This document shows positions 22,510-44,538 of a stretch of 44,538 nucleotides of DNA, in pieces; the stretch's first letter is position 1, and each line of letters opens with the position of its first letter. This DNA is from Candidatus Woesearchaeota archaeon (lineage in GTDB: Archaea; Nanobdellota; Nanobdellia; Woesearchaeales; WJKL01), in NCBI GenBank assembly GCA_014729675.1, contig WJJM01000068.1, positions 1 to 44,538 of the forward strand, read 5' to 3'. The notes below the pieces were generated by a model. It saw nothing but the letters and a program-made list of their open reading frames with translations. It did not search any database and was not told the DNA's origin. Made by a program: the position numbers and the translations under genes.

Positions 22510-23010
22510 ATGAATGAAATTGAAAAGCGGTTTACAGGCTTTATACAGAATGCAGGCACTGCACAGGGAATAAATGACAGCCTTTTTCTGAAGCTTTTTG
22601 CATTGCTCTACATTGAGCCTGAAGAGATTTCAATGGATGAGCTTGCTGAGAAGACAGGATACAGCCTTGCATCTGTGAGCAACAAGATAAAGCAGATAGA
22701 GTCTTTGTTCGGAAATATGCTGGACTTGAGAAGGATGAACAAGCCGGGAACAAGAAAGATATACCTTTACATGGAAAAGGATTTTGATCCTGTGAAAATG
22801 ATAAAAGATACACTTTCTAAAAAGTACAAATATGTAATAAAAGCAGCAGAATCAGAACTTCCAGAAGTGATAGATAAAGGGAATAACAGCTCAGACAAGA
22901 GGACAAAAGAGCAAGCTAAGAATCTTCAGAAATATTATAATAATGTTCAGAAACTGGAGAAAGTTATAGGAAAATTGTTAGATTACATGGATGATATTGA
23001 AAATGGTTAA
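22510..23010 (+). CDS. GbsR/MarR-like winged-helix regulator
   Basis: The track uses TTG 22501; ATG 22510 (MNEIEKRF) is the better start. The 166 residues have a winged helix: LFLKLFALLYIEPEEISMDELAEKTGYSLASVSNKIKQIE as helix-turn-helix, then a wing with MNKPGTRKIYLYME. A C-terminal coiled-coil (about 120-165) probably mediates dimerisation. The layout matches GbsR-type regulators that control transport genes in archaea and bacteria. It overlaps the start of the ABC ATPase gene, so it probably regulates this operon, perhaps through the dyad at its own promoter. Confidence 0.82.
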   Translation: MNEIEKRFTGFIQNAGTAQGINDSLFLKLFALLYIEPEEISMDELAEKTGYSLASVSNKIKQIESLFGNMLDLRRMNKPGTRKIYLYMEKDFDPVKMIKDTLSKKYKYVIKAAESELPEVIDKGNNSSDKRTKEQAKNLQKYYNNVQKLEKVIGKLLDYMDDIENG

Positions 23011-23692
23011 GAGAGATAAACATATAATCAGGATAGTGGAAGCTTGGAAGACCTATAAGATGGGAGATGTAGATGTGCATGCTCTTAGAGGTATGAATTT
23101 TGAGGTTGAATACGGAGAATTTGTAGCTATAATGGGGCCTTCTGGATCAGGGAAATCTACAGCAGTAAATATGGTCGGCTGTCTGGATGTTCCGACAAAA
23201 GGGGATATATATCTTGAAGGCAAGAACATATCTACATTAAGCGAGTCACAGCTTGCTCAGATAAGAGGAAAGAAGATAGGATTTATCTTCCAGCAGTTCA
23301 ACCTGATATCTACACTTACAGCAAAAAGGAACGTTACACTGCCGATGGTCTTTCAGGGAGTAGGATACAGGAAAAGAGTAAGAAGGGCTGAGAAACTTTT
23401 GAAGATGGTAGGTTTGGGAGAAAGGATGCAGCACAAGCCGACAGAGCTTTCAGGAGGACAGCAGCAGAGGGTTGCCATAGCAAGAGCTTTGGCAAATGAC
23501 CCGGATGTTATACTTGCTGACGAGCCAACTGGAAATCTTGACTCAAAAACCGGAAAAGAGATGATGGATTTCTTATGCAATCTGCACAAGAAGGAGAAAA
23601 AGACAATAGTTATGGTAACCCATGATCCAAGATTAGCTAAGTTTGCAGAGAGGATAGCTCATCTTAGGGATGGATCAATAGTGAAAAGATAA
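23003..23692 (+). CDS. ABC transporter ATPase, LolD/MacB type
   Basis: From ATG 23003 (MVKRDKH) there are 229 residues; ATG 22991 is an alternative. All ABC motifs are present: Walker [11 protein letters not shown]-loop FIFQQFNLI, signature [15 protein letters not shown], Walker [14 protein letters not shown] and the switch His in MVTHD. The PTGNLDS after Walker B is typical of the LolD/MacB/FtsE group, which powers mechanotransmission rather than classic uptake. It overlaps the regulator gene by 8 nt and precedes an ectoprotein and two FtsX/MacB-type permeases. Confidence 0.95.
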
Positions 23693-23729
23693 CATTATTA
23701 TATGATAATAAAAAAATAAAGGTGATACA

Positions 23730-24965
23730 ATGAAAATCAAGAAAAATATAGGAATTATCCTACTTGCTTTATTATTTTCAGCAGCATATGTATATGCAGG
23801 ATCTGCCGGAGCAAATATAGGCATAAGCCTGATAAGCCAGGAGCCTGATCCTGCTGATCCTGGAGAAGTAATAGATCTGAGATTTAGGGTAGAGAATGAA
23901 GGATGGGAAACAACAGATGATATAATCGTAGAATTTGTGGAAAAGTATCCTTTTACTGTCTATGATGGAGAGAATGTAAAAGAAGTGGGAAACCTTCAAG
24001 GACTTCAGACAAGCAATGAAGGGGTTATACTTCTCTATAAGGTGAAGGTTGATGAAGATGCTGTACAGGGAACACAGTATGTAGACATAAGATATAAGGA
24101 AGGAGGTAAAGGACACTGGATAAAGATAGAAGACTTTCCTGTAAGGGTAAGGACAAGAGATCTTGTCTTGTCTGTGGATTCCATAAGATCTGAGCCAGAG
24201 CTTGTATCTCCTGGCCAGGATTTTGAGCTCAACCTTAACATAAAGAACAATGCAGATTCATTGATAAGGGACATCACTGTTGCATTGGATGTGTCAGACG
24301 ATGACATGCCATTTGCACCTTCAACATCTATATCTGAAAAGCAGGTGTACCAGATAAACTCAAATTCAGAGAAGATACTCTCTTTTGATATGGTCGCTCT
24401 GCCGGATGCTGAAGGCGGAATATACAAAGTTCCAATAGATATCTCATATACAGACGAGACAGGGACATCATATTCTAAATCAGACATAATAAGCCTGAAG
24501 ATAGCGTCATCTCCTGATCTTCTTGTCAACATAGACAATTCTGAGATAACCAATGATAAAAAATCAGGGGAAATTGCGATAAGGATAGTCAACAAAGGGC
24601 TGACAAACATAAAACTCCTTACTGCAAAAATTCAAGGTGACGATAAATTTGAAGTTCTTTCTCAGGAGGAAGCATATGTTGGGAATGTGGATTCTGATGA
24701 TTATGAGACTGCAGAATTTGAGATAAGGGTAAAAAGCTATGACCCTTTGATAAATCTGCCTTTAGAGCTTAGCTATATGGATTCTACAAACAAAGAACAC
24801 GAACAAAAAGTAGACCTTGAGCTTAAGACTCACAGCAGCAGCCTTGCTGTAAGCATAATCTCTGAGATAATCAAAGGCGTACTGATAATAGCTGTCATAG
24901 TCGGAGGAGGACTGTTCTTATATAGATGGTATAAGAAGAGAAAGAAGAAGAAAAGAACAGAATGA
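23730..24965 (+). CDS. CARDB/S-layer-like ectoprotein of the ABC operon
   Basis: The 411-residue protein has a signal peptide (about 1-24, ending near YAGSAG). It has several Ig-like beta domains of CARDB/COG1361 type: DPGEVIDLRFRVENEGWETTDD, VSPGQDFELNLNIKNNAD and SGEIAIRIVNKGLTN are the strand pairs at the start of successive modules. A C-terminal transmembrane helix (about 378-400) precedes a very basic KKRKKKKR tail. GGTGAT lies before the ATG, acting as a ribosome-binding site. The ATGA overlap with the next gene implies coupling. It likely forms the extracellular part of the MacB-like machine or binds its substrate. Confidence 0.85.
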   Translation: MKIKKNIGIILLALLFSAAYVYAGSAGANIGISLISQEPDPADPGEVIDLRFRVENEGWETTDDIIVEFVEKYPFTVYDGENVKEVGNLQGLQTSNEGVILLYKVKVDEDAVQGTQYVDIRYKEGGKGHWIKIEDFPVRVRTRDLVLSVDSIRSEPELVSPGQDFELNLNIKNNADSLIRDITVALDVSDDDMPFAPSTSISEKQVYQINSNSEKILSFDMVALPDAEGGIYKVPIDISYTDETGTSYSKSDIISLKIASSPDLLVNIDNSEITNDKKSGEIAIRIVNKGLTNIKLLTAKIQGDDKFEVLSQEEAYVGNVDSDDYETAEFEIRVKSYDPLINLPLELSYMDSTNKEHEQKVDLELKTHSSSLAVSIISEIIKGVLIIAVIVGGGLFLYRWYKKRKKKKRTE

Positions 24966-26185
24966 AAAGCTATTATTTTAAGTTTGTTCTTACAAGCCTA
25001 AAAAGCAGAAGGATAAGATCCTGGCTTACTATGATAGGAATATTCATAGGGATAGCTGCTGTTGTAGCCCTGATAGGGCTTGGAGAGGGCCTGAGAGAAG
25101 CTATAAATTCTCAATTTGGTTTTCTTGGGACAGATATATTGAGCATAACAGCTTCAGGAGGATTTGGGCCTCCGGGGACTGGGGTTGTAGATCCTTTGAC
25201 TGATAAGGAATTGGATGCGGCAAGAAAGGTTCCAGGTGTAGAAGGTGTTGCAGGGAGGATACTTGAATCAGGAAAGTTGGTGTTCAACAAGAAAGTTGCA
25301 TTTGGATATTCTGCGAGTATGGCTGACGGAAAGAGCAGAGACATACTGGAGCATATACTAAATATGGATGTTGCAAGGGGCAGGCTTCTTGAAGACGGAG
25401 ATTCAGGCAGAGTTGTCCTGGGATATGATTTCTATGAGGATGATGAACTTTTTGGAGAACCTATAGATGCAGGAGACAAGGTAGAGATCCTGGATAAAGA
25501 GTTTGAAGTTATTGGAATATTAGAGAAGAAAGGCAATTTTCAGATAGACAGGACAGTATTTATCAATGAAGATGACCTGAGAGATCTTGTAGGCAGACCA
25601 GATGACGAGTATGATATAATAGGTGTTCAGGTTGTAGAGAATGCAGATATAGAAAAGATACAGGCGAGCATAGAGAAGGAATTAAGGAAGATAAGAGATG
25701 TTGACGAGGGGGAGGAAGATTTTTCAGTTGAAACCCCTGCAAATGTTGTAGAGAGTGTAAATTCAATCCTTCTTGGAGTCCAGGTTTTTGTGTATGTGAT
25801 AGCAAGCATATCTCTTCTTGTGGGAGGTATAGGCATAATGAACACGATGTATACTGCAGTTATAGAAAGGACGAGAGATATAGGCATAATGAAATCAATA
25901 GGAGCCAAGAATTCAACAATATTTGTCCTGTTCTTTATAGAGTCAGGACTGTTGGGGTCAGTAGGCGGCATAATCGGAGCGCTATTAGGATTTGCCTCTG
26001 CAAAAGGCTTTGCTTTTATAGGGAAACTAGTTTTAGGCTCTAATCTTATATCTGCACAAATATCCCCTCAACTGATAATAGGAGCATTATTGTTCTCTTT
26101 TGTTGTAGGGTCTTTTTTTGGAACCCTGCCTGCAGTCCGGGCTTCAAAATTAAATCCAGTAGATGCATTGAGTCAGAGAAAATGA
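24962..26185 (+). CDS. MacB/FtsX-type ABC permease 1
   Basis: The 407-residue permease has an N-terminal transmembrane helix (RRIRSWLTMIGIFIGIAAVVALIG), a large extracytoplasmic domain (about 50-275), and three C-terminal transmembrane helices with the family motif ERTRDIGIMKSIGAKN between helices 2 and 3 and a final PAVRASKLNPVDAL. This is the MacB-PCD plus FtsX arrangement. Overlaps by 4 nt with both neighbours show tight coupling. With permease 2 it probably makes a heterodimer driven by the ATPase at 23003. The transported or extracted substrate is unknown. Confidence 0.93.
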   Translation: MKSYYFKFVLTSLKSRRIRSWLTMIGIFIGIAAVVALIGLGEGLREAINSQFGFLGTDILSITASGGFGPPGTGVVDPLTDKELDAARKVPGVEGVAGRILESGKLVFNKKVAFGYSASMADGKSRDILEHILNMDVARGRLLEDGDSGRVVLGYDFYEDDELFGEPIDAGDKVEILDKEFEVIGILEKKGNFQIDRTVFINEDDLRDLVGRPDDEYDIIGVQVVENADIEKIQASIEKELRKIRDVDEGEEDFSVETPANVVESVNSILLGVQVFVYVIASISLLVGGIGIMNTMYTAVIERTRDIGIMKSIGAKNSTIFVLFFIESGLLGSVGGIIGALLGFASAKGFAFIGKLVLGSNLISAQISPQLIIGALLFSFVVGSFFGTLPAVRASKLNPVDALSQRK

Positions 26186-27402
26186 TAAAAGATATACTAA
26201 AATATTCACTTTCAAATCTTTGGAACAGGAAACTGCGTAGTTTTCTTACTATGCTTTCTATACTGATAGGTATAACAGCAATATTTGCCCTGATAAGTTT
26301 TGGGCAAGGGTTGAACTCCTGGATAGACGGTTTTGCACAGGAGATGGGAACTGACAAGGTGTTTATCATGCCAGGTGGCGGATTATCCAATGCTCCAGGA
26401 ACAAGCAACATAAAATTTAATGAAGAAGATCTTGACTTTATAAGGAAGATAAAAGGAGTAGATGAAGCTACTGCCATGATGGCTATCTCTGGAAAAGTAG
26501 GTTATAAAGACTACAGGGATGTATATCCTTTTATAATAGGATTGTCTACTGAAAGCAATGAGATGAGACTTATAGAGGAGATGTTTGGAGGGATAGGCAT
26601 TATGGAAGGAAGAGGCCTTAAGAAAGGAGATGTACTTAAGGCGACAGCAGGATATAGCTATACTGTCCCTAACCGGCTTTTTAAGAGAGAGTTGTCTATT
26701 GGAAGCAAGGTAGCTATAAATGATGTTGAAGTTGAGATAGTTGGATTTTATGAAGAAGTTGGCAGTCCGACAGATGATGCACAATTATATCTTTCTCAAG
26801 AAGGTTTTGAAGAAATATTTGATATTGAGGAATTTGAATACATCTATATGAGGGTTGCTCCAGGGGAAGATCCCTCTATGATTGCTGACAGGATAAAAGA
26901 AAAATTCAGGAAATATAAAGGGCAGAAAGAAGGTGAGGAAGATTTTACTGTACAGACTTTTGAAGATATACTTGAAACATTTACAAGCATACTTCTTGTT
27001 TTAAATGGGGTTTTAGTCATAATCGCATTGATATCTGTCGTTGTTGCGGCTGTAAATATCATGAATACTATGTATACTTCTATATTAGAGAGGACAAAAG
27101 AGATAGGGGTTATGAAGTCTATAGGAGCCAGAAATGAATTTATCCTGTTGGTCTTTGTAACTGAGTCAGGCGTCCTTGGATTTTTAGGAGGATTGATAGG
27201 TGTTATCCTGGGAGCAGGGTTTGCAAAAATAGGCGGGATGGCTGCATCTGCTTTCGGCCTTACTATGATACAGCCTGATTTTCCATGTTGGCTTATAGCA
27301 GGATGCCTTATTTTTGCTTTTTTAGTTGGTTCTTTATCAGGACTTATTCCAGCTATACAGGCTTCAAAATTAAATCCAGTGGATGCGCTTAGATATGAGT
27401 AG
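26182..27402 (+). CDS. MacB/FtsX-type ABC permease 2
   Basis: A 406-residue paralogue of the preceding permease with the same layout: N-terminal helix (RKLRSFLTMLSILIGITAIFAL), periplasm-like domain, then three helices with ERTKEIGVMKSIGARN and a final PAIQASKLNPVDAL. The two differ strongly in the external domain but share the membrane core, consistent with a heteromeric transporter. The gene ends the operon. It overlaps permease 1 by ATGA. Confidence 0.93.
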   Translation: MIKDILKYSLSNLWNRKLRSFLTMLSILIGITAIFALISFGQGLNSWIDGFAQEMGTDKVFIMPGGGLSNAPGTSNIKFNEEDLDFIRKIKGVDEATAMMAISGKVGYKDYRDVYPFIIGLSTESNEMRLIEEMFGGIGIMEGRGLKKGDVLKATAGYSYTVPNRLFKRELSIGSKVAINDVEVEIVGFYEEVGSPTDDAQLYLSQEGFEEIFDIEEFEYIYMRVAPGEDPSMIADRIKEKFRKYKGQKEGEEDFTVQTFEDILETFTSILLVLNGVLVIIALISVVVAAVNIMNTMYTSILERTKEIGVMKSIGARNEFILLVFVTESGVLGFLGGLIGVILGAGFAKIGGMAASAFGLTMIQPDFPCWLIAGCLIFAFLVGSLSGLIPAIQASKLNPVDALRYE

Positions 27403-30681: not shown

Positions 30682-32136
30682 ATGGCTGATAAAATAAATA
30701 TTGAAGAGATGAATATCTTCTGCAAGAAAAAAGGATTTGTATATTCCAATTCTGAGATTTATGGAGGTATAGCTGGATTCTTTGATTACGGCCCTTTAGG
30801 AGTTGAACTTAAGAACAATATCAAACAGGACTGGTGGAGAAGATTTGTTAAGAGCAGAGAAGATGTCGTAGGGATAGACGGCGCTATAATCTCGCATCCA
30901 AAAGTTTGGGAGGCATCCGGCCATGTTGAGAATTTTAATGATGTATATGTCAAATGCAAGAAGTGCAAGAAGCCGAACAAGATAGATAAGAATGAAGTTG
31001 GAAAGATCAAATGTGAATGCAGCGGAGAGTATGATGTTATCGGAGACGTCAATCTTATGTTTAAGACAAATGTTGGGCCAGTAGAGGGAAATATCGCTTA
31101 TCTAAGACCTGAGACTGCACAGCTTATTTTTACAAATTTTAAGATAGTTTCAGAAACTTCAAGAGCAAAACTTCCTTTTGGGATTGCGCAGCAGGGAAGA
31201 GCTTTCAGAAATGAGATATCTCCAAGAGATTTTCTTTTTAGATGCAGGGAGTTTGAGCAGATGGAGATAGAGTTCTTTATCCATCCTGATGAGAAGAAAT
31301 GTCCTTTGTTAAAAAAAGAAGATATTGATTTTGAATTTCAACTTCTTTCTGAAAAAGATCAGGAAAAAGATGATGGCTGTGAATTAAAGATAACTCTTGG
31401 AGACATGCTTAAGAAGAAGATGTTGGGAGAGTGGCATGCATATTGGCTTAAGGAAAATTATCAATGGTTTTTGGATCTTGGGATAGCAGAAAAAGATCTT
31501 CGGTTAAGGGAACATATGAAAGATGAGCTTGCCCATTATAGTTCTGCATGTTTTGATATAGAATATAGATATCCTTTTGGATGGAAAGAAGTCCATGGAA
31601 ATGCAGACAGGGGACAATATGACCTTGGAAAGCATCAGGAAGTAAGCAAGAAATCAATGGAGCTTTTTGACGAGGAAAGCAAGAAGAAAGTAATCCCAAG
31701 AGTTGTAGAGCCATCACAGGGAGTGGACAGGGCTTTTTTGACTGTGTTGTTTGATGCTTATGAGGATGACAAGGAAAGAGGAAACATTGTCCTTAAACTG
31801 CATCCAAAACTTGCTCCTGTTAAAGTTGGAGTATTTCCTCTTGTGAACAAGCTAAATGATGATGCAAGAAAGGTCTATGATATATTGAAAGATGATTTTG
31901 CATGCCAGTTTGATTCTTCTGGAAGTGTGGGAAGAAGATATGCAAGAGCTGATGAGGCAGGGGTTCCATATTGTATTACTTTTGACTTTGATTCTTTGGA
32001 AGATAAATCAGTTACTGTTCGTGATAGAGATTCTACAAAACAAGTAAGGGTTGAGATTGAGAAGCTTAATCAGGTTATTTCTGGGCTGCTTGATTCTAAA
32101 ATAGAGTTTGATAAATCTGGAAAGCTTGTAGAGTGA
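30682..32136 (+). CDS. glyS: Glycyl-tRNA synthetase
   Basis: A class II, eukaryote/archaeal-type GlyRS. The 484 residues show GFVYSNSEIYGGIAGFFDYGPLG near the start and a zinc-ribbon-like insert CKKCKKPN with CECS. Motif 2 reads FRNEISPRDFLFRCREFEQMEIEFF, preceded by YLRPETAQLIFTNF. Motif 3 reads VVEPSQGVDRAFLTVL, and the C-terminal anticodon-binding domain has KLAPVKVGVFPLV. Motifs are intact. The gene stands alone and is followed by the repeat-rich leader of the AbrB/giant-protease unit. Confidence 0.96.
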   Translation: MADKINIEEMNIFCKKKGFVYSNSEIYGGIAGFFDYGPLGVELKNNIKQDWWRRFVKSREDVVGIDGAIISHPKVWEASGHVENFNDVYVKCKKCKKPNKIDKNEVGKIKCECSGEYDVIGDVNLMFKTNVGPVEGNIAYLRPETAQLIFTNFKIVSETSRAKLPFGIAQQGRAFRNEISPRDFLFRCREFEQMEIEFFIHPDEKKCPLLKKEDIDFEFQLLSEKDQEKDDGCELKITLGDMLKKKMLGEWHAYWLKENYQWFLDLGIAEKDLRLREHMKDELAHYSSACFDIEYRYPFGWKEVHGNADRGQYDLGKHQEVSKKSMELFDEESKKKVIPRVVEPSQGVDRAFLTVLFDAYEDDKERGNIVLKLHPKLAPVKVGVFPLVNKLNDDARKVYDILKDDFACQFDSSGSVGRRYARADEAGVPYCITFDFDSLEDKSVTVRDRDSTKQVRVEIEKLNQVISGLLDSKIEFDKSGKLVE

Positions 32137-32362: not shown

Positions 32363-32545
32363 ATGAAGGAACTCAAAAGAAAACTTTACAAAAGAGGCAG
32401 TAGTGTAGAGGTAACTATACCTATGCCTTTGCTTTTTTCTATAGACAAATCAAAGAAACATGATGTTATTTTCAAGTTTGATGAAGAGAAAAAGAAATGG
32501 TATATTGAGATGGATAAGAGAGAGTCCTCAGAAGAAGAGCAATGA
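32363..32545 (+). CDS. AbrB/SpoVT-like small DNA-binding protein
   Basis: The protein has 60 residues. The N-terminal half, KRKLYKRGSSVEVTIPMPLLFSI, has the swapped-hairpin beta strand pattern of AbrB/MazE-type DNA-binding proteins. It continues with a strand pair (HDVIFKFDEEKKKWYIEM) and a charged tail. The stop overlaps the start of the giant protease gene by ATGA, so the two are translationally coupled. It probably regulates that gene or its own promoter; the repeats upstream are candidate sites. Not tested. Confidence 0.75.
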   Translation: MKELKRKLYKRGSSVEVTIPMPLLFSIDKSKKHDVIFKFDEEKKKWYIEMDKRESSEEEQ

Positions 32546-35500
32546 TAGCAGAGGAAAAAGGGGGAAAAGGTACGGTAATCCTGTTTTTGTTAGCTTTAGT
32601 TTCACTTGCATTTCTACTTTATGTTGAATTTAATGGGCTCGAGGATATAACAGGGAGAAACGTTCTTGATTTTAGTAATGTATCTTTGGATGGATACAAT
32701 GATTCTATAATTGTTGAATTTAATGCTTCTGGAGAGAAAATAGTGTATATAGAACTTGAGGAAAGAACTTATTCTTTAGCAAGGATGGATATAGTTGGAA
32801 GAAATGAAACAGGAGAATATCCTTATATTCCCAGGGTGGATGTTCTTGATGATGGAGAATTTGAATGGGCAAATACCGGAAGGTTTGATTCTGCTGAAGA
32901 GACTGATGATTTCAGCTCTGATCTGAACTTGTATATCTCTAATTGCGGAGAATACCCTTGCCCTGTGCCTATCAAAGTATATTCAGATTCAGCTGGAATT
33001 ATAGAGTTGAAAAATTTATATTTAGTTTTTGGTGGAGAGGCTGAACAACCACTACCCCCAGCTTCTTCACCGATTTCTTCTTTAGAGCCTGCAAAGATAG
33101 ATTCTGGGATTGAAGAAGAGATTCAGGAGAAGAGCGAAGCTAAAGTTATTGTTGTGCTTAAGGATGAGCCTGTTGAAACAGGGATGACAGGGATAACTGG
33201 GCAGCCTGTGAAAGAAATAAGGAAAGATATATTCAAGGAGAAGAAAGCTGAAAGACTGGAAAAGATAAAGCAGAAAGTTAAAGAAAAACAGGAGAAGGTG
33301 CTTTCTGAGCTTGAGCTTGAAGATAAGACAGAAAGGGGGATACTTGGGATTGCTCAGGAGAAGAAGGCTGAGTTTAAGCTTGAGAGGAAATATTCTACTG
33401 TAAATGCTTTTTCAGGGAAAGTAACTGAAGAAGGGCTTAGGAAGCTTGAAGATAATCCTGATGTTGAAGCTGTTTATCTTGTCCCTACTTTGCATATATC
33501 CTTGGATGATACTGTTCCTTTAATACAAGCTGACCATATGCATAATTATTCTGTTGATGGAGAGAATATAACCGGAAAAGGCCAGACTATCTGTATAATA
33601 GATACAGGAATACAGACAGATCATCCTGATTTTCAGAACAGGGTTATTGATGAATATTGTTATTGCACTGCCAGTGATTATGGAAACGGAGGATGCTGCC
33701 ATGACAATACAAATGAATCAGATGTTGGGGATGATGACAATGACCATGGAACACATTGCGCAGGAATAGCTGCTGCAGATGGAACTGTGGTTGGTGTTGC
33801 TCCTGAATCTAATTTAATAGCTATTAAAGTGTGTGATTCTTCTGGAGACTGTGACGGGGACGATATGATGGCTGGAATGGACTGGTGCATTGCGAATTCT
33901 ACAAGATACAATATCTCTGTGATTTCAATGAGTCTTGGAGATTGGAATCCTCATTCTCCTGGAAATTGTCCTGACTGGATGGATTCAAGCATAAATAATG
34001 CACATGATAGTGATATCCTATTTGTTTCTGCTTCTGGAAATACAGGAAATACAACTGGAATTGATTATCCTGCATGCAGCCAGAATACTACTGGAATAGG
34101 GGCTGTAACTAAATCTGATGTCATATGGACAGGTACAAGCAGGCATCCTGATCTTCTTGATATATTGGCTCCAGGAGCAGGTGTTTATTCAACAGTTCCT
34201 ACAGATAATTATGCTACTAATACAGGAACTTCAATGGCAACTCCACATGCTGCCGGAGCTGCAGCTTTGATATATCAGTATGCTGAGCTGGAGGGGTTGA
34301 GCTTTAGTGTGGATGATGTTGTTGAACTTATGATCGATAATGGTAAGACTATTGGAGACTATTCAAGAGTTGACTTTAGCGGAATATTTCTTAAGCTTGA
34401 GGAGAATATAACTGCTAACTTAACTGCATATTCTTTGGGGAAGGAAGGAATAGGAAAGATAGGCTTCTATAACTATACTGAGTTCGGGAATATCCTTGAT
34501 AGGATAAACATAAGCTATAATTATGCTGAGATAGATGCAAGTTCAGCTTTGGAGTATAACAAGTCAGCTATAATAACATTAGATGGATTGAACTTTGATT
34601 CTCCTTTTGTTGAATATTTCAACGGAACTGAATTTGAGGAATGCAATTCAACTACTGATCCAGCATGCATAAACATAAGCTATAATGGAAGCAGGTTTGT
34701 GTTTAATGTCAGCCATTTTACCGGATTTAGGGCTGCTGAGGGAGGAAATGATTCTGGAGAGGGTGTAGAGAGCGCAACAATAACAAAGACTGCTTTAAAC
34801 GAGTCTGTCATCAATGGAAGTATTATCCAGTTTATAGTCAATATTACAAATACAGGCATAACTGATTTTACCAATTATGAGCTTACAGACAGATTTAACA
34901 AGAGCTATATCAATTATACAGGAGCTAATCGAACACCTGATGATATCAGATATGATGGTGGCGAGATAGAGTGGCTTATTAATCTTAGTGCAGGAGAAAG
35001 TGAGATATTTCTTATTAATTTCACAACTTATACTGTCGGAAACACCACTAACATCATTGATATGGAGAACAGCACAGGATCTTCAATAGGGTATGATAAT
35101 GAGAGTATAGAGGTACTAGAAGAAGAGGAAGAAGAAACAAGACTTTATGATCTTGGGGATGCTCCTGATTCATGCAACCATTTCTATACAGACATGGAGA
35201 CTGACCCGAGCATGTTTAGCAGCGGGATAACTGCTGATTATCCGACTGTGCATAATACAACACTTAAAGACAACTGCGGAAAGACATATGGGCCATGCCA
35301 TGAGAATTATTTCCTGATACTGGGAAGAAATATAACCTTTGAGGATGAGGCTGATGTTGGGAATGATGAAGATTTTCCAGATAACAACATAAAACCAAAT
35401 GCAAATGAGTCTGATTTTGATTCTGTTATCGGAACCAGTTTTGGTATGGATGACGGTCTTGGAAGCACAGGCATAAACTACACTAATGATATGTTTAATT

Positions 35501-38500
35501 GGGAGCACTGCCAAAATGTTTCTATTCCCATAGATATAAACATTTCAGGAGGGCCTTATGCAGCTGACTGGAACGCTACATTGAACATCTGGATAGATTA
35601 TAATAAGGATGGGAACTGGGCTGATTCTCCATGGTCTCAAGATACTGTGATGTGCGGCATGCAATCGGTTTCTGAATGGGTTGTCCAAAATGATGTTGCT
35701 GCGCAGCTGAACTTTGGAGGTTTTGGTCCTGGACAGATAATACATTATGCAAATTTTACTGCTTTTTCAAACATATCAGGTTATACATGGATGAGAGTGC
35801 AGGTAACTCCAGGCCCTATAAATTCTATGCAGTATGCAGACGGTTCAGGCCCTGCTGTGTGTTATGAAGATGGAGAGACTGAAGATTATTATGTGAATAT
35901 AACTTATCTTGAAGAAGAGGAAGAAGGATATTTCCAGAATCTAAGCATATCAAAAACATCTTTAGATGACAATGTAACTAATGGAAGCACTGCTGAATTT
36001 TTGATAAACATAACAAATACAGGAAATATCAATTTTTCATCTGTTGAATTAAATGATAGCTATGATATTAATTTCTTAAATTACAGCAGTTCAAGCAAAG
36101 CCTATGAAGATAATGCATATGATGGAGATATAATATGGGTTGTTCATGACCTTGCTTCTGACAGTTCTTCTTTGATATATGTAAATTTCACTGCTCTTGA
36201 TGTTGGAAATACAACCAACCATATTTTTGCTGAGAACAGCACAGGCTCTTTAATGGGGTATGATAATGAAAGTATTGAAATCTTAGGGGAAGGAGAGGAA
36301 GAAGTTCAGGAAAACGTGACAAACCTAAGCTGCGAGGTGACAACAAACTGTACATATACAAAAGTTCTTGGGTTGTCTTCTTTGACAAATGCGCATGCTG
36401 AATTAGCTAATGAATCTAACTATAATTATAGCATATGCTGCAGAGATATAAGCAATACTGTAAATATAGTCAATGATTCAGGAACAGTTTTTATCAGGCT
36501 GAGTGATTCTACAAATGCGCACGTAGAGCTTCCAAGCGAGGGGAATTATGCTCATGACGCTTATATAGGCACTGATTCTTTATCAAATTCAGTAGAATGC
36601 AGTTATCTAAACACAAGCGGAGCATGCTCTGAAAATACAACTTGTCTGATGACTCTCCCTACAAATATCAGCGGAAATACAAATCTCCAGCCAGGAGATT
36701 GCGTCACTAATCCTTATCTTACTTCTGTATGCTGCGGAATTGTCGAAGACAGCGCTCCTATTGTCACGCTATTATCTCCTGCAGACAATCATTACAATGA
36801 CAGCGCAGAGCCTGAAGAGATATTGTTCAACTGCTCTGCAACTGATGACAAGCTTGTAGATAATATCTCAATGTATCTGACTGATAAAGATGATACAAAC
36901 TTTAAGATAAATTATAGCTGCGATATAGATGCTGCAAAAGGAAGCTGCAGCAAAAGGCTTAACCTTACAAACGGAAACTATACATGGAACTGCGCTGCTT
37001 ATGATAACATAAGCCAGGAGACATGGGGAAATAACAGGACAATAGTGGTAAATTATACTGCATGCATACCAGAACTTGTTAATACAACATGGACAGAATG
37101 GATAAATATAAGTTGTGTATCTGGCAAGATGAACCAAAGTAGAAATAGAACACAGTACGATAATAATAGCTGTGGAATAATAGCTAACCAGACATTCTAT
37201 GAATATCAGCTTGTAGGTCCGGATTATGAAAATACAACCTGGGGCGACTGGATGAACCTTACATGTGTCGGCAGCCAGATGAACCAAAGCAGAAACAGAA
37301 CACAGTATGATGAATATGGCTGCGCTCCAAGTATAACTCACTATGATTACCAGCTTGTAGGCCCTAATTATGAAAATACCTCTTGGTCAGACTGGATCAA
37401 CATCTCCTGTTTGCCTGATGATACCATGAACCAAAGCAGAAACAGAACACAGTATGATGAATATGGCTGCGCTGCCAACCAGACATTTATAGAATACAGG
37501 CATACAGAATTCTGTGATTATTGCACCCCTAACATGACAAACACTTCATGGAGAGCATATTATAATATAAGCCCGTGTTATGAGAATGACACTATAGAGC
37601 AGGAAAGGAACAGGACGCAGTATGATTCAACCTATTGCGGGGAAGTGGGAAATACAACTTTCTTTGAACAGCAGATTATAGCATGCATAAATCCCCCTTC
37701 AAGTGTTACAGGCTTGGTGAATATCTCTTCAACAAACGAGACAATAAACTGGACATGGACAAATCCATCAGAAGCTGACTTTAACTCAACAATCCTTTAT
37801 CTCAATGGAAGCAACATCATCAACCTTTCAAGCACGATAGATTCATATAAGGCGGCAGGGCTGCAGCCTAATTCATCTTATAATCTTACTGTGCATACAA
37901 AAGATCATAATGGCAATATAAACTATACTGATGTGAGCAATATTGCACAAACAACCAGAAATCCAATACTTCCTATTGCTGATAACTTCAGCGGAGAGTA
38001 TGGGACAACCAATTTCTCAGATGTGTCAGATATCACAAATGTAAAAAATCTTACCTTAGCAAGAGCAGGAGGAAGAATAAAATTCCCTGGATCTTATGGG
38101 GTTGATGCTGAAGCAGAAAATTATGATCTGAATGTTTTAATAGGGGATGGTTTTGTAAGCGTGAATACTTCTGCATTGGATACCAGCTTCAATGCTTCTG
38201 CTGAGATTACTATAAACAATGTAAGCTGTCCTTCTACTGTGTATTATGGTGGAGGATTGTATAGTTCTTCTCAAGAGATTGTAGGAGAAGGCAACGTATG
38301 TGATGCTGGAACTGATCCAAGCTGTACAAATGTAACCTGTATGGGGAACATATTAACATTTACAACAAGCCATTTCACAGGATTTGCATCTGCTGCAACA
38401 GCTAACCTCACTATATGGGATGAAACTGATAATACTGTAAAAGCTCCAGATGAACAGATAAGATTCTTTGCTAACTATACAAATTCAACAGGAGAGATAG

Positions 38501-41500
38501 AAGGGGCGAACTGCACTATCAATTTTAATTCCAGCCTGAACAATAATATGGGCTGGAACGCAACTTCAAGACTGTATGAATACAACAGAAGCTTTTCAAG
38601 CACTGGAATGTATGGCTGGAATGCAACATGCAACAAGACCGGTTATGATACATTGACTGCTTCAGACACTGTTATTGTCATGTATAATAATACAGTTCCA
38701 GGCATGGATATGATAAGCCTTAATCCAAATACAGGAATGAACAATACTGCTGTAAATGTAACTTCTATAGGTGCAAATGATACTGACGGACAGCAGTTAA
38801 GATTAGAATGCGGGGATTCAACAGGAAATTATAATCTTTGTACTGGAAATTATGGAAGCCCTGAAAGAAGCTGCATATTCAACAGCCCATGGGATGATGA
38901 TTCCACACATCAAGTGTATTGTGCTGTATATGACGGAGTAAACTATTCTATAGAAAGAAATAATCAGTTTTTTGCAGACAATACTGCTCCTGTAACTTTG
39001 GCTGTGCATAATATTGAGGGAGACAGTACAACAAAATATTGGGATTCTGTAGAGGATAACAAGACACTGATACAGGTAATACTTAATGAAAGCGAAGTTA
39101 ACTGTAGATGGAGCATAGTAGATGCAAAATATGATGATATATCTTCAGCTAATGAATGTGCTGTGCAGGGAAGTCTTGCAAGCTGCAATGTTACGCCTTC
39201 ATCCCAGATCAATGAGACTAATGTCACTATATCCTGCGAAGACAAATATGGAAATGACCAGAATGTTTCACAGAATCTAGAAGTTATATATGGTGTTGAC
39301 TGGACAAAGCCGACAGTATATACCACAAACAATGGCATGATAAATCCTCCTGGATACTCAATAACATTTGTAGAAACAGATGTGCCTGCAGGAACAGAGA
39401 TAATGACATGGTACTGCAACGATACATCTGACAACTGCACACCTTCAACCAGTATAGACAACGGCTCAACAGTGTCTTATTATGGAAGAGGAAATTGGTA
39501 TGTAAAATGGAATGCCACAGATGAAGCTGGAAACGTGAACATGTCTGGACAGACAGTTGTAATGATAAACATACTTCCAGATGTGACAATGCATTGGTAT
39601 GAAGATCTGGTGAATCACACTTTCAATGTATATATAAATGCTTCAGACATTGATAATTCACAGAACTTAAGCTGCCAGATATTCCACAGGCATGCTGCAG
39701 GAGGAGCATGGAATATAACCAACATGAGCCTTTACAGCGGAACACTGACAAACGGATCATTTATGGGGAATATATCTGAAGCTGACGGATATACAGGGCT
39801 GGATAATATAGAATCATTTGTTAACTGTACAGACGGAGTTGAATATTATAATTCAAGCCCGAGCACACATATACTGCCTAACTATCTTCCAACAAGGCCA
39901 GTTGTTGACCTTATTCCAGACAATGCAACAACAACTAACAATCTTATATGCAATATCACTAATACAAGCACAGATATTGACGGAGATGATATCAATTATA
40001 CTTATGAGTGGTATAGGGATGGAATCCTAAACAGGACAGTCTATTATACTAATGACACATATAATGTACTTTCAGCAGACAACACTACAAAGCATGAGAA
40101 CTGGAACTGTACTGTAATCCCTTACGACAATTATGAGAATGGAACTTCTGACAGTGATGATATAACTATAGCCAATACTCCTCCTGCCCAGCCTACAGTA
40201 AATATAATTCCTGGGCTGCCGATAACAACAGATGATCTCAATTGCAGTGTTACAGGAACTGATGCTGATAATGACAGCCTTAACTATACATATAGATGGT
40301 ATAAGGATGGAGACTTCAATTACAGTGTTTATACAAACAAGACAAGCATCATACTTGGAAAGAGCAACACTACAAAAGGAGAAGAGTGGAACTGCAGTGT
40401 AATTGCTTATGACGGAGAAGAAAACGGGAGCATGAGCTCTGATTCTACAGTAATACAGAATGCCCCCCCTAGTGCTGCTTCTGGATTTAATCCAAGAAAG
40501 TTCCACAACCTTACCCAAAAGGTCAAGTGGACAGAAGGTATCGATCCTGACGGAGACAGCGTAAGTTCTTATCTTTGTGTTTCAACAAATTCAACATGGA
40601 GAGATGCAGATGTTTGTGATGTTGTAAATCTTGCGCTTACAGCAACTCCAGATTATACATTTAATCTGGGAGAACTGCAGCATATAGGAGAATCAAGGAC
40701 ATATTATGTAAGGATAATAGAGACAGACGGGCTGCTTAACAGTGTAGATTATGACACTAACTTCAACCTGACGAACTTAAGGCCAAATGCTACTGCTGTT
40801 GATGTTATGCCTAATATGCCTAACAGTCTGGATACATTAATATGCAACTATTCTTTTAATGACGGAGATGAGGATGGAGAGAATGTTAGTGGTGCAGAAT
40901 TTAAATGGTATGTGCAAGATGAAGGAGCAGGGGCATTTGTTGAGCAGGCAGGACAGACAAATAAGACATTGGATACTGGGTTTGACAGGGATGATGTTGT
41001 CAAGTGCGCTGCTTTGGTTGAAGATGAATACGGGCTTAATGATTCAGCATACAGGAATGGATCAACAGAGCTGATATTGAACGCTCCTCCAAATATTGCA
41101 ATAGATCTGGTTCCAGACAATGCATCCTCTTCAGATAATCTTATATGCAATGTCACTTCATCATATGATGTTGACGGAGATAACCTGAACTATACTTATG
41201 AGTGGTATAAAGATGATATATTTAACAGGAGCATATATACAAACCAGACCTTTGATATTATCGGAGCCGGGAATACAAGTGATTATGAGAAATGGCTCTG
41301 CAATGTGACTCCTTATGATGGTATTGTAAATGGAACTGCTATAAGTGATTATGTTGTTGTTGGAAATGCCCCTCCTAGTTTTGTATCTGCTGTGGATGAT
41401 GCTGATATAATAAAGGGTGGAGATAATGTAACTGTATCTACAGAATCATCTGATGAAAATGGAGATATGATCTGGCTTTATGTATGCAATTCAACAAGCG

Positions 41501-44500
41501 TATCAAGTGCAGGATGCAATGACAAGCAGTACTGCAGCAATCTGACTTCTTTAGCAAATGCTTCATGCAGTTTTGCTTCTGAGATAGACAATAATCTGCA
41601 CAAATGGTATGCATATCTTTATGATAACAGGACAGTGCAAGCAGTGAATGATTTTGAAGGCAACTATACTACTGATTCAGATGCTCCTATAACAGATGAT
41701 GACAGTGTGAGTGATACGACATGGTATAGCAGTTATGTGAATATCTCCCTGAATGCAACTGATAATATTGCAGGAGTTAACAGGACATATTATTGTGTCT
41801 ATGATGCAGGGGAGGCAGCATGCACTCCAAATATCTTAAGCTATAATAATCCAAGATCTGTAGAGATAAACTGTTCAGGAGAAGAGAGCTGCCAGCAGAT
41901 CATAAGATATTATTCAGCAGATAATGTTGAAAATGTTGAGGGTGTGAAAGAGAGCTTTAAGGTAAACATCGCTGTAGGTAGCACTGTAAACAATACAAAT
42001 GCTACAAACAGCACTATCATCAATAGCACCATCATCAATTCTACTATAATCAACTCAACGATCATAAATTCAACAGTTATCAATTCAACGATACTTAACA
42101 GCACAAAAGTAAACTGTACTATAATCGACAGTATCATAGAGAATTCAGTCAATTATAATTGTGAGTTGCGAGATGTAGGAGAATATGGTTCCAGGATAAA
42201 TGACAGTGATTTCAACCAGAGCTTTGTGAATGAGTCAACTATATGGAATCTTTCTGGATTTGGAGATATAAGATATGATAATGTATATGGCGGCAATCTT
42301 AGCTATAATAATTATACCTATGCTGTAAATTCAACCCTTCCTAGCCCTTGGAGCCTGCAGAACATATATGCCCAGTGCGGCGACGGAGTGTGTGCTGGAG
42401 AAAATGTTTGCGGACCTGACAACAATTACCCTAACTGCAACTATGACTGCGGACCATGTCCTGGAACTGCAACAGCACCATCTGGAGGCGGAGGCGGAGC
42501 ATCCAGGAGATCTATATGTGTTGAGCAATGGCAATGCAGACCATGGGGTATATGCTATCCTAATGGTACTCAATATAGGGAATGCTGGGACATGAACAGA
42601 TGCGATGATCTCTATAATCAAAGGATAGTTACAAGAATCAACAAGACACAAAAGCCAGCAACGTACAGGGCTTGCAGTTATGTAAAAGAATGTTATCCTG
42701 AGAACAACTTATTTGGTCCTTTAACATTAAACAGGACATTCAAAACTTATGATGACTCATACCCTGGATCAGAACATCTCCCTGAAAACTATATCCTGTA
42801 TATAGGCAATACTCTTTTTGGAAATGTGGTTTCCGATGAACCTATAAAAGACATAAGGAAGTATAACTATAACTTTGATGCAACTCCTGGAGAATATCTT
42901 CTTTATGTGGGCAACAATGATGATGCTTCTGTTATAATCGAGATAAATGGAAGAGGGGTGGTAAATCCCTATGATTTCAATCCATCTGTTCATGTAATCA
43001 CAAGGAAGATCAATCTAAGCAGCCAAAACAAGATAGATATAGAGCTAAGAAGCAAACCTGGTTCAAGCATAGTGGTGTGGATAGGGGAATTATGTTCTTG
43101 CAGTGTAGATTCACAGTGCAATGGAGAATCATTTGAATGCGATAATGAGGGCATATGCGTAAGCAAACCTTCTTGCGAAGATGGAATAAAGAATCAGGAT
43201 GAGACTGGCATCGACTGCGGAGGAAGTATGTGCGAAGCGTGTGTTGAGATGCCTGCAGCAATAATCCCAAGGATGACACCTTATGAGCATATCATGAATT
43301 TTGCTGTAGAAAATATTGTCTGGCCTATAAGTGATTTTGTAAGATATGCTTATATGCCTTTTGTTAGGGATACAATAACTGCAACAGGAAAAGCATTCTA
43401 TGGAATCGCGAGTGGAACATATAGTGCTGTCATTTCTCTGTATGGCGAAGTTTCATCTTATCTTATTGAGAAATATATCCCTGCAAGCATGAGACTTCTG
43501 GAAACTATCTATGATTCTGCATCTTCTTTCATAGTTGAAGACTATATCCCTTTCAGCATGTCCGTATTAGGCGGACTCTGGAATGGTGTGAGAATATTGA
43601 CCAATAGTCTTGGATCCTTAGTTACAGATATAATAATCCCTTTTGCATCATATATAGTGAAGGAGACATATGATTATGTGGCAAATGTGTACATTCCATG
43701 GAGCATGCAGATAATAGGCAATGTTTCATCCATTACAGGGGACGCATTGGATGCTTTGACTGATACAATATATAGATCTGCAAAAGATACTGCGAGATGG
43801 AGCTGGGAGACAGGCATTGATATGCTTAACTCTACCAAAGATGGACTGGTTAATGCAGGATCATTTGTCAAAGAAGAATATATCCCGTGGTCTTTAGACA
43901 TTATAGGTGACAATCTTATCGGATTCTTGATGACTCTTATCCTTGTTGCAGCTGTAATTCTTGTAGTGTATGGATCAAGGAACTACGAGACTATAGAGAT
44001 GTACAGAAGATATACTAATGTAAAGATAAAGAGAGGGCTTGAAGAAAGAAGGAAGAGGCTTGAGAAACAGAAGAAAGCAAGGGATGAAGCTGAGAAAAAG
44101 AAAATGCTTCGGGAGAAGAAAGAAAAAGAAAAAGAACAGAGGCTGGAAAGAGAGAAAAAGATCAAACAAGAAAAAGAGAAAGAAAAAGCCTATATATCAT
44201 CTGAGCTTGAGAGAAGGTTTGAAAAAGAGAAAAAAAGGATAGAAGAGGAAAGAAAGAAGAAAGCAGAAGAAGAAGCAAAAGAAGAGAAAAAGAAATTTGA
44301 TGAAAGACAAAGAAGACTAGAGCATAAGAAGAGATTACAGGAAGCAAAAGAAAAACACAGGAAAGAGATTGAAGAAGAAAAAGAGAAAGAAAAAGCCTAT
44401 ATCCAGCAAGAGCTTGAAAGAAGGTTCAGGGCTGAGAAGAAAAGGATTGCTGAAGAGAAAGTCAGGAAAGACATTAAAGAGAAAAAGCTGACAAAAAAAC

Positions 44501-44538
44501 AGATAAAAGATATAGAAAAGCAAAGGCAAAAAAATATA
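32542..44538 (+). CDS. Giant multidomain subtilisin-family surface protein (open at right edge)
   Basis: One uninterrupted frame of 3999 codons to the window end, absent from the ORF track. I read it codon by codon and saw no stop. Order: membrane anchor (about 12-31); beta domain; propeptide-like region (about 195-320); S8 protease with Asp354 (IIDTGIQ), His402 (DHGTHCAG), Asn500 (SASGNTGN) and Ser564 (GTSMATPHAAG). Then come DUF11/CARDB-like repeats, a GEVED-like domain (ending GETEDYYV), four thrombospondin-like W..W..C..QSRNRTQ repeats (37072-37680), an FN3-like domain, Ig/PKD-like repeats (39890-41370) and a ladder of eight N-glycosylation sequons (42007-42126). Cys-rich modules, amphipathic YIPxSM repeats (43351-43900), a transmembrane helix (3794-3813) and a cytoplasmic Lys/Glu coiled coil follow. 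It has anchors at both ends and is probably a giant surface protease or adhesin. The true C-terminus is outside. Confidence 0.88.
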   Translation, partial: MIAEEKGGKGTVILFLLALVSLAFLLYVEFNGLEDITGRNVLDFSNVSLDGYNDSIIVEFNASGEKIVYIELEERTYSLARMDIVGRNETGEYPYIPRVDVLDDGEFEWANTGRFDSAEETDDFSSDLNLYISNCGEYPCPVPIKVYSDSAGIIELKNLYLVFGGEAEQPLPPASSPISSLEPAKIDSGIEEEIQEKSEAKVIVVLKDEPVETGMTGITGQPVKEIRKDIFKEKKAERLEKIKQKVKEKQEKVLSELELEDKTERGILGIAQEKKAEFKLERKYSTVNAFSGKVTEEGLRKLEDNPDVEAVYLVPTLHISLDDTVPLIQADHMHNYSVDGENITGKGQTICIIDTGIQTDHPDFQNRVIDEYCYCTASDYGNGGCCHDNTNESDVGDDDNDHGTHCAGIAAADGTVVGVAPESNLIAIKVCDSSGDCDGDDMMAGMDWCIANSTRYNISVISMSLGDWNPHSPGNCPDWMDSSINNAHDSDILFVSASGNTGNTTGIDYPACSQNTTGIGAVTKSDVIWTGTSRHPDLLDILAPGAGVYSTVPTDNYATNTGTSMATPHAAGAAALIYQYAELEGLSFSVDDVVELMIDNGKTIGDYSRVDFSGIFLKLEENITANLTAYSLGKEGIGKIGFYNYTEFGNILDRINISYNYAEIDASSALEYNKSAIITLDGLNFDSPFVEYFNGTEFEECNSTTDPACINISYNGSRFVFNVSHFTGFRAAEGGNDSGEGVESATITKTALNESVINGSIIQFIVNITNTGITDFTNYELTDRFNKSYINYTGANRTPDDIRYDGGEIEWLINLSAGESEIFLINFTTYTVGNTTNIIDMENSTGSSIGYDNESIEVLEEEEEETRLYDLGDAPDSCNHFYTDMETDPSMFSSGITADYPTVHNTTLKDNCGKTYGPCHENYFLILGRNITFEDEADVGNDEDFPDNNIKPNANESDFDSVIGTSFGMDDGLGSTGINYTNDMFNWEHCQNVSIPIDINISGGPYAADWNATLNIWIDYNKDGNWADSPWSQDTVMCGMQSVSEWVVQNDVAAQLNFGGFGPGQIIHYANFTAFSNISGYTWMRVQVTPGPINSMQYADGSGPAVCYEDGETEDYYVNITYLEEEEEGYFQNLSISKTSLDDNVTNGSTAEFLINITNTGNINFSSVELNDSYDINFLNYSSSSKAYEDNAYDGDIIWVVHDLASDSSSLIYVNFTALDVGNTTNHIFAENSTGSLMGYDNESIEILGEGEEEVQENVTNLSCEVTTNCTYTKVLGLSSLTNAHAELANESNYNYSICCRDISNTVNIVNDSGTVFIRLSDSTNAHVELPSEGNYAHDAYIGTDSLSNSVECSYLNTSGACSENTTCLMTLPTNISGNTNLQPGDCVTNPYLTSVCCGIVEDSAPIVTLLSPADNHYNDSAEPEEILFNCSATDDKLVDNISMYLTDKDDTNFKINYSCDIDAAKGSCSKRLNLTNGNYTWNCAAYDNISQETWGNNRTIVVNYTACIPELVNTTWTEWINISCVSGKMNQSRNRTQYDNNSCGIIANQTFYEYQLVGPDYENTTWGDWMNLTCVGSQMNQSRNRTQYDEYGCAPSITHYDYQLVGPNYENTSWSDWINISCLPDDTMNQSRNRTQYDEYGCAANQTFIEYRHTEFCDYCTPNMTNTSWRAYYNISPCYENDTIEQERNRTQYDSTYCGEVGNTTFFEQQIIACINPPSSVTGLVNISSTNETINWTWTNPSEADFNSTILYLNGSNIINLSSTIDSYKAAGLQPNSSYNLTVHTKDHNGNINYTDVSNIAQTTRNPILPIADNFSGEYGTTNFSDVSDITNVKNLTLARAGGRIKFPGSYGVDAEAENYDLNVLIGDGFVSVNTSALDTSFNASAEITINNVSCPSTVYYGGGLYSSSQEIVGEGNVCDAGTDPSCTNVTCMGNILTFTTSHFTGFASAATANLTIWDETDNTVKAPDEQIRFFANYTNSTGEIEGANCTINFNSSLNNNMGWNATSRLYEYNRSFSSTGMYGWNATCNKTGYDTLTASDTVIVMYNNTVPGMDMISLNPNTGMNNTAVNVTSIGANDTDGQQLRLECGDSTGNYNLCTGNYGSPERSCIFNSPWDDDSTHQVYCAVYDGVNYSIERNNQFFADNTAPVTLAVHNIEGDSTTKYWDSVEDNKTLIQVILNESEVNCRWSIVDAKYDDISSANECAVQGSLASCNVTPSSQINETNVTISCEDKYGNDQNVSQNLEVIYGVDWTKPTVYTTNNGMINPPGYSITFVETDVPAGTEIMTWYCNDTSDNCTPSTSIDNGSTVSYYGRGNWYVKWNATDEAGNVNMSGQTVVMINILPDVTMHWYEDLVNHTFNVYINASDIDNSQNLSCQIFHRHAAGGAWNITNMSLYSGTLTNGSFMGNISEADGYTGLDNIESFVNCTDGVEYYNSSPSTHILPNYLPTRPVVDLIPDNATTTNNLICNITNTSTDIDGDDINYTYEWYRDGILNRTVYYTNDTYNVLSADNTTKHENWNCTVIPYDNYENGTSDSDDITIANTPPAQPTVNIIPGLPITTDDLNCSVTGTDADNDSLNYTYRWYKDGDFNYSVYTNKTSIILGKSNTTKGEEWNCSVIAYDGEENGSMSSDSTVIQNAPPSAASGFNPRKFHNLTQKVKWTEGIDPDGDSVSSYLCVSTNSTWRDADVCDVVNLALTATPDYTFNLGELQHIGESRTYYVRIIETDGLLNSVDYDTNFNLTNLRPNATAVDVMPNMPNSLDTLICNYSFNDGDEDGENVSGAEFKWYVQDEGAGAFVEQAGQTNKTLDTGFDRDDVVKCAALVEDEYGLNDSAYRNGSTELILNAPPNIAIDLVPDNASSSDNLICNVTSSYDVDGDNLNYTYEWYKDDIFNRSIYTNQTFDIIGAGNTSDYEKWLCNVTPYDGIVNGTAISDYVVVGNAPPSFVSAVDDADIIKGGDNVTVSTESSDENGDMIWLYVCNSTSVSSAGCNDKQYCSNLTSLANASCSFASEIDNNLHKWYAYLYDNRTVQAVNDFEGNYTTDSDAPITDDDSVSDTTWYSSYVNISLNATDNIAGVNRTYYCVYDAGEAACTPNILSYNNPRSVEINCSGEESCQQIIRYYSADNVENVEGVKESFKVNIAVGSTVNNTNATNSTIINSTIINSTIINSTIINSTVINSTILNSTKVNCTIIDSIIENSVNYNCELRDVGEYGSRINDSDFNQSFVNESTIWNLSGFGDIRYDNVYGGNLSYNNYTYAVNSTLPSPWSLQNIYAQCGDGVCAGENVCGPDNNYPNCNYDCGPCPGTATAPSGGGGGASRRSICVEQWQCRPWGICYPNGTQYRECWDMNRCDDLYNQRIVTRINKTQKPATYRACSYVKECYPENNLFGPLTLNRTFKTYDDSYPGSEHLPENYILYIGNTLFGNVVSDEPIKDIRKYNYNFDATPGEYLLYVGNNDDASVIIEINGRGVVNPYDFNPSVHVITRKINLSSQNKIDIELRSKPGSSIVVWIGELCSCSVDSQCNGESFECDNEGICVSKPSCEDGIKNQDETGIDCGGSMCEACVEMPAAIIPRMTPYEHIMNFAVENIVWPISDFVRYAYMPFVRDTITATGKAFYGIASGTYSAVISLYGEVSSYLIEKYIPASMRLLETIYDSASSFIVEDYIPFSMSVLGGLWNGVRILTNSLGSLVTDIIIPFASYIVKETYDYVANVYIPWSMQIIGNVSSITGDALDALTDTIYRSAKDTARWSWETGIDMLNSTKDGLVNAGSFVKEEYIPWSLDIIGDNLIGFLMTLILVAAVILVVYGSRNYETIEMYRRYTNVKIKRGLEERRKRLEKQKKARDEAEKKKMLREKKEKEKEQRLEREKKIKQEKEKEKAYISSELERRFEKEKKRIEEERKKKAEEEAKEEKKKFDERQRRLEHKKRLQEAKEKHRKEIEEEKEKEKAYIQQELERRFRAEKKRIAEEKVRKDIKEKKLTKKQIKDIEKQRQKNI
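37072..37680 (+). repeat. Four tandem thrombospondin-like repeats in the giant protein
   Basis: Each unit has NTxW-x2-W at the start, a Cys, then MNQSRNRTQYD (or EQERNRTQYD) and a second Cys about 30 residues on. The WxxW, Gln and Arg spacing resembles thrombospondin type 1 repeats. Units are about 46-55 residues. DNA identity between units is high, suggesting recent duplication. Confidence 0.75.
42007..42126 (+). repeat. Pentapeptide NST-I-I ladder within the giant protein
   Basis: Eight consecutive 15-nt units: seven encode N-S-T-x-x and the last N-C-T. Codons for the same residues differ from unit to unit, so the pattern is held at protein level. Each unit carries an N-glycosylation sequon at a 5-residue period, the geometry of a right-handed beta helix turn. 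Confidence 0.85.
43921..44538 (+). repeat. C-terminal transmembrane helix and cytoplasmic charged coiled-coil repeats
   Basis: GFLMTLILVAAVILVVYGSR is the membrane helix. After it all residues are Lys/Glu/Arg-rich heptad-like sequence. The block EKEKEKAYIxxELERRFxxE occurs twice with a 210-nt (70-residue) period, at about 44170 and 44380. The frame runs off the window. Confidence 0.75.

Follow-up and report, generated by a model that had tools for sequence, protein, structure and literature searches.

The window, that is, the whole 44,538-nucleotide stretch that was analysed, is one entire contig (G000:C57, exactly 44538 bp) of a genome assembled in 72 contigs (1.44 Mb, 92% complete). Its last part is occupied by a giant ORF (32542..44538), which starts with the ATG at 32542 and comprises 3999 codons without a stop or an N before it runs off the window end. 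At the given base composition, an open frame this long has a chance of ~10^-132; the remaining five frames of the region contain 138-438 stops, and GC3 along the gene is steady (0.28-0.34). The ORF is therefore a real gene and, as the window is the entire contig, its absent stop is an assembly edge. The initial annotation had described a continuous frame of at least 3999 codons filling 27% of the window, and both statements hold; yet the gene makes up 0.8% of the 1.44-Mb genome. That the ORF track had missed it is also correct, but merely because such listings normally leave out open-ended ORFs.

The upstream neighbour is a glycyl-tRNA synthetase-like gene (30682..32136; Pfam HGTP_anticodon/tRNA-synt_2b), and a similar gene precedes a related giant in another genome (G001:C82, L052 354-1889, with the N-module described below at 4365). 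Next comes a 60-aa ORF (32363..32545) that overlaps the start of the giant by 4 nt (ATGA). It looks AbrB-like by eye only, and no significant Pfam match confirmed this identity. Here as well as in the related genomes G001, G002, and G003, the start of the giant is closely preceded by a small ORF: the one at the equivalent position in G001:C163 is 48% identical to the 60-aa ORF, and those of G002 and G003 (59-61 aa) are ribbon-helix-helix-like with weak Pfam support. In G001:C163, the tail of one giant, an ORF of the 60-aa type, and the start of the next giant follow one another in a tandem arrangement (L050 3900-4506). Elsewhere in the window (22991-27402), an ABC ATPase, a CARDB-domain protein, and two MacB/FtsX-like permeases are encoded consecutively. 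The two upstream neighbours and all features of the giant listed below are on the forward strand.

Domain organization of the giant protein

The N-terminus carries a predicted TM helix (residues 12-30; 32575..32631), probably a signal-anchor, which could instead be a cleaved signal peptide, followed by an invariant TG motif (residues 37-38). The same [ILMF]TG motif is found straight after the N-terminal helix in the window (32647-32655) and in L046, L048, L050-L052, and L074; it recurs across many surface proteins of these genomes and is a possible sorting or processing signal. The beta-rich N-module (residues 33-165; 32638..33036), delimited by alignments with relatives, has the motif NCxxxPCPV. 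Its structure model reached a pLDDT of 67.7, and a sequence search against the PDB gave no match. Its Foldseek matches were to viral capsid jelly rolls and GOLD domains, but all had E values over 1e-3 and most had low TM-scores, so that the module is given no fold name.

An Inhibitor_I9 propeptide (residues 202-312; 33145..33477; Pfam E 8.6e-6, above cut-off) precedes the Peptidase_S8 domain (residues 345-599; 33574..34338; PF00082, E 3.8e-48). The catalytic set is intact, as had been claimed, with the triad D354/H402/S564 and the oxyanion N500. Subtilisins of the PDB match the domain at E down to 8.8e-32, and the Asp/His/Ser triad, the oxyanion Asn, and the upstream I9 propeptide place it in peptidase family S8 (subtilases). 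Proteins of this type are frequent in the order, the N-terminal 663 aa having a match at E<=1e-20 in 65 of 100 related genomes. The source genome encodes two other S8 proteins (L011 1-5532 and L010 2-4702), one strongly depleted in sequons (0.18x) and the other enriched (2.05x).

For the middle of the protein, the Pfam matches above curated cut-offs, besides S8 and I9, are GEVED (residues 1014-1119; 35581..35898; E 1.4e-6) and DUF11 in two stretches, the better copy being at residues 1134-1233 (35941..36240; E 1.8e-8). Four W-x2-W-x3-C ... RNRTQYD repeats (~residues 1500-1690; 37039..37611) show a TSP1-like motif only (TSP1_2, E 0.67). An FN3-like stretch (residues 1718-1795; 37693..37926) is sub-threshold (E 0.02), and Ig-like repeats (~residues 2420-2960; 39799..41421) match Ig_7 in two stretches below cut-off (E 5e-4); the PKD (E 0.07) and Big_7 matches are below cut-off too. 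The FN3, Ig_7, PKD, and TSP1 stretches are plausible beta modules whose names are not secure. A further beta-module block (residues 2055-2612; 38704..40377) is 38-42% identical to blocks at a different position in giants of G001. Of the modules listed by the initial annotation, GEVED, the glycosylated ladder (as a pentapeptide beta-helix, see below), and the Cys-rich block thus stood, while the FN3, Ig, PKD, and TSP1 names fell below curated cut-offs.

The sequon-bearing ladder (residues 3148-3210; 41983..42171) has N-S-T at five-residue spacing from 3156 to 3191, the last copy being N-C-T. AlphaFold2, run on the single sequence, placed ladder strands every 5 residues with a pLDDT of ~80-85 over most of the ladder, and Foldseek retrieved the SV2 luminal domain, MfpA, and QnrB. 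In the G003 ortholog, the ladder is longer and matches Pentapeptide_4 at E 8.3e-8, under the curated score cut-off. With its five-residue period and modelled strands, the ladder is most likely a pentapeptide beta-helix.

Downstream, a Cys-rich block (~residues 3250-3595; 42289..43326) combines a TSP1-like W-x-C-x2-W with a DCGG cysteine motif, and is followed by a juxtamembrane region (43327..43911) with five copies of Y-[IM]-P-[WFA]. The second membrane helix and cytoplasmic coiled coil of the initial annotation were borne out: a predicted TM helix (residues 3792-3810; 43915..43971) leads into a K/E/R-rich coil (43972..44538) that lacks sequons and continues past the contig.

The ectodomain contains 210 N-x-S/T sequons, versus 65 expected from shuffling and 65 reversed motifs. 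This 3.2-fold excess, the zero sequons of the tail, and the STT3/AglB-type oligosaccharyltransferase encoded in the source genome support a middle outside the cell and a tail in the cytoplasm; no sequon excess was seen in cytosolic control proteins. The giant is hence predicted to be a heavily N-glycosylated surface protein. The description as a giant subtilisin surface protein is supported.

The probable 3′ end was located on a second contig of the source genome. In G003, the C-half of the ortholog (L047 8947-12678) has a complete C-terminus, in which the coil is followed by a short predicted-helical stretch with GWPKKF and a stop. Genes for a type IV pilus/archaellum-like ATPase and a membrane protein, recognized by eye, lie near this C-half (L047 2644-7165). 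Searching the source genome with the G003 tail gave a single strong match, right at the beginning of contig G000:C66 (2-520, 172 aa, E 2.2e-10). Elsewhere in the family, copies of the tail domain with a visible 5′ side are fused to TM-coil surface proteins, and two further copies sit near contig edges. From the tail match and these fusions, the start of C66 is probably the 3′ end of the giant, in which case the protein would have at least ~4,170 aa. No sequence overlap was found between the window end and C66, and an SD-like GAGGTGATC ahead of an ATG near the start of C66 means that it could be a separate gene. The Pfam/NCBIfam search of the tail and of C66 gave no domain, the bases between the window end and C66 being unseen. 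A restriction-enzyme tail, initially proposed for SPEARE proteins and suggested here by the coil plus PD-(D/E)XK-like protein of G000:C48, was rejected because the complete C-ends of relatives do not have one. By eye, a protein of the source genome (L012 7999-9138, reverse strand) has a PD-(D/E)XK-like domain after a K/E/R coil. Directly after the probable 3′ end on C66, genes resembling a P-type ATPase and a cation exchanger were recognized by eye (L060 568-4279).

Relatives with conserved ends

The alignment search with the N-module identified three MAGs, DPANNHV_H2.bin.19 and Bin_187 (both Woesearchaeota) and DeMMO1_7, and the named relatives support the archaeal origin; a scan of genome contigs with the full-length protein gave no match. 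We then compared the giant by BLAST with the proteins of G001, G002, and G003. The N-bookend, which includes S8 (residues 1-~610), is 41-42% identical to the N-halves G002:C23 and G003:C54. Residues ~17-164 (to 239 in C82) match three G001 proteins (C163, C187, and C82), in which the N-module is followed by cadherin-like, LamG, Ig-like, or unnamed modules. No S8 match was found in these three within the 471-1,392 aa before the contigs end; as all three N-ends run off their contigs at these lengths, S8 may lie further along. The middle blocks 1919-2046 and 2055-2612 recur elsewhere along G001 proteins with 38-51% identity. The C-bookend (ladder, Cys-rich block, juxtamembrane Y-x-P, TM helix, and coil) recurs in G003:C38, G001:C74, and G001:C60, and G002:C102 has it from the Cys-rich block onward.

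Across three related genera, we therefore observe a family in which both ends are constant and the middles differ. The pairing of N- and C-halves in the relatives is inferred, since the halves are on separate contigs. The protease, too, is apparently swapped between relatives, and the paralogs in which non-protease modules follow the N-module suggest a conserved core made up of the stalk rather than of proteolysis. The N-module model matches 48 of 282 genomes of the phylum, including frames of 8692, 5535, and 4214 aa. The C-terminal segment, used in a single-sequence search among 292 genomes of the order, matched G003 only, which points to a family-level, fast-evolving C-bookend. The 8692-aa surface-type frame with an N-module match (G086:C2, L082/L083) belongs to the same order and is larger than the giant; the same stretch has a long frame with a K/E/R coiled coil at its end, and no S8 motif was seen in the part read.

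No description of this family was found in the open-access literature, and articles on YN1, on the parasitic nanohaloarchaeon, and on cryo-tomography contained nothing about such proteins. As far as this literature goes, giants with constant ends and swapped middles are a previously undescribed family. Woesearchaeota are widespread and largely uncultured. For this group, the bookend family gives concrete targets (antibody and proteomic markers, and an enzyme to assay), with the N-module motif, the GWPKKF tail, and the sequon ladder as sequence markers for finding more giants. New here is also the recovery, on another contig, of the probable missing 3′ end. The significance would be greater if the swapping of the bookend family and the display of the protease at a tip were shown.

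Comparison with known surface proteins

The SPEARE giants of Nanohaloarchaeota were read in 2019 as having a cytoplasmic restriction enzyme (PMC6642349), and were reanalysed in 2023 as having a VirB4-like ATPase and a coiled coil, with the protease and nuclease domains disputed and probably no protease (PMC10266531). Like them, the present protein is a giant DPANN surface protein with adhesion-like ectodomain modules, a C-terminal TM helix, and a cytoplasmic coiled coil, and it shares their size and topology, with several thousand, mostly extracytoplasmic residues. SPEARE giants have at least one laminin-G domain; no LamG match was obtained in the giant at E<=0.1 (Pfam), but LamG is present in family members of G003 and G001. 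The VirB4-like ATPase and restriction-type domains are absent from the tail of the giant and from C66 by Pfam/NCBIfam, the intervening bases again being unseen, and also from the G003:C38 ortholog, whose C-end is complete. Unlike SPEARE proteins, the giant has a certain S8 domain and shows neither an ATPase nor a nuclease; it is therefore not a member of that group, though it may work similarly. It also demonstrates that DPANN giants can carry genuine subtilisin domains, which has been disputed in the SPEARE case.

In Staphylothermus marinus, STABLE is a separate protease bound to the tetrameric coiled-coil stalk tetrabrachion (PMC5744192). In both cases a glycoprotein stalk, predicted for the giant, keeps a subtilisin at a distance from an archaeal membrane, but in the giant the protease and the stalk are a single chain. 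STABLE on tetrabrachion is the closest functional picture, although the giant is no member of that system.

Gram-positive cell-envelope proteinases (lactocepin, C5a peptidase) have a propeptide-S8 unit, a long Ig/FN3-like stalk, and C-terminal surface attachment through a sortase LPXTG anchor, together with a PA domain. The giant resembles them in its N-terminal propeptide-S8, long stalk, and C-terminal attachment, but differs in its pair of TM helices and its cytoplasmic coil; its C-end is a TM helix with a basic coil, and no LPXTG anchor of the lactocepin type was found there. Other Woesearchaeota likewise have S8 in multi-thousand-residue secreted proteins (frames of 3386 aa in G022, 3245 aa in G088, and 3115 aa in G096). 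No giant-type C-bookend was detected in these by single-sequence search, and the G096 protein ends in many TM helices.

Proposed maturation and function

Subtilases with I9 propeptides normally cleave the I9-S8 junction. By analogy, the precursor would be exported while its two ends stay cytoplasmic, its ectodomain would be N-glycosylated, I9 would chaperone the folding of S8, and S8 would then cut the I9-S8 junction. As this junction lies between the two helices, autocleavage would free the N-terminal part with its anchor, leaving a long stalk held by the C-terminal helix with an active subtilisin at its free tip. The 'two-anchor' protein of the initial annotation would thus be right for the precursor (helices 12-30 and 3792-3810), but only that state, the C-terminal anchor alone being expected after autoprocessing. 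The tip protease would digest proteins on the cell surface or further out, be it a neighbour or host envelope or a nutrient protein, and the cytoplasmic coil would tether or report. On the present evidence we favour, with some reserve, this reading of a surface-display giant with conserved ends that becomes a tip-protease stalk. More tentatively, the whole family may pair bookends that stay constant with ectodomains that can be exchanged, be expressed together with a small coupled regulator, and rely on an optional subtilisin to turn a double-anchored loop into such a stalk, used at cell contact.

What the protease would act on can be read in several ways. A host- or prey-contact device, as the initial annotation had suggested, would bind a partner cell by its beta modules and open the S-layer by its protease, as proposed for SPEARE giants. 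This is possible but doubtful: the size, adhesion-like modules, and C-terminal anchor are like those of the giants of host-dependent DPANN archaea, and nano-sized bacteria presumed to be symbiotic or predatory often have giant ORFs, whereas the giant shows neither a VirB4-like ATPase nor a secure lectin/LamG domain, and the three G001 paralogs with an N-module show no protease as far as sequenced. A nutritional protease releasing peptides for uptake, like the cell-envelope proteinases or STABLE, has a documented precedent in a stalk-bound archaeal subtilisin with such a suggested role (PMC5744192) and would suit the abundance of S8 proteins in the order; it appears rather unlikely, as it explains neither the G001 N-ends with no visible protease nor why the stalk exceeds 3,000 aa. 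Still less probable is a role chiefly in self-maturation or S-layer processing, with the protease cutting its own chain or neighbouring envelope proteins. I9-S8 units do self-process, and STABLE has been proposed to cut the tetrabrachion precursor (PMC5744192), but self-cutting alone does not need the giant stalk. That the giant is an assembly artefact or a chimera of separate genes is hardly credible: the contig comes from a MAG and several relatives are split at contig edges, but the single frame crosses 12 kb with steady GC3 and no N, the N- and C-bookends are each conserved among relatives, and the sequon excess spans the whole ectodomain.
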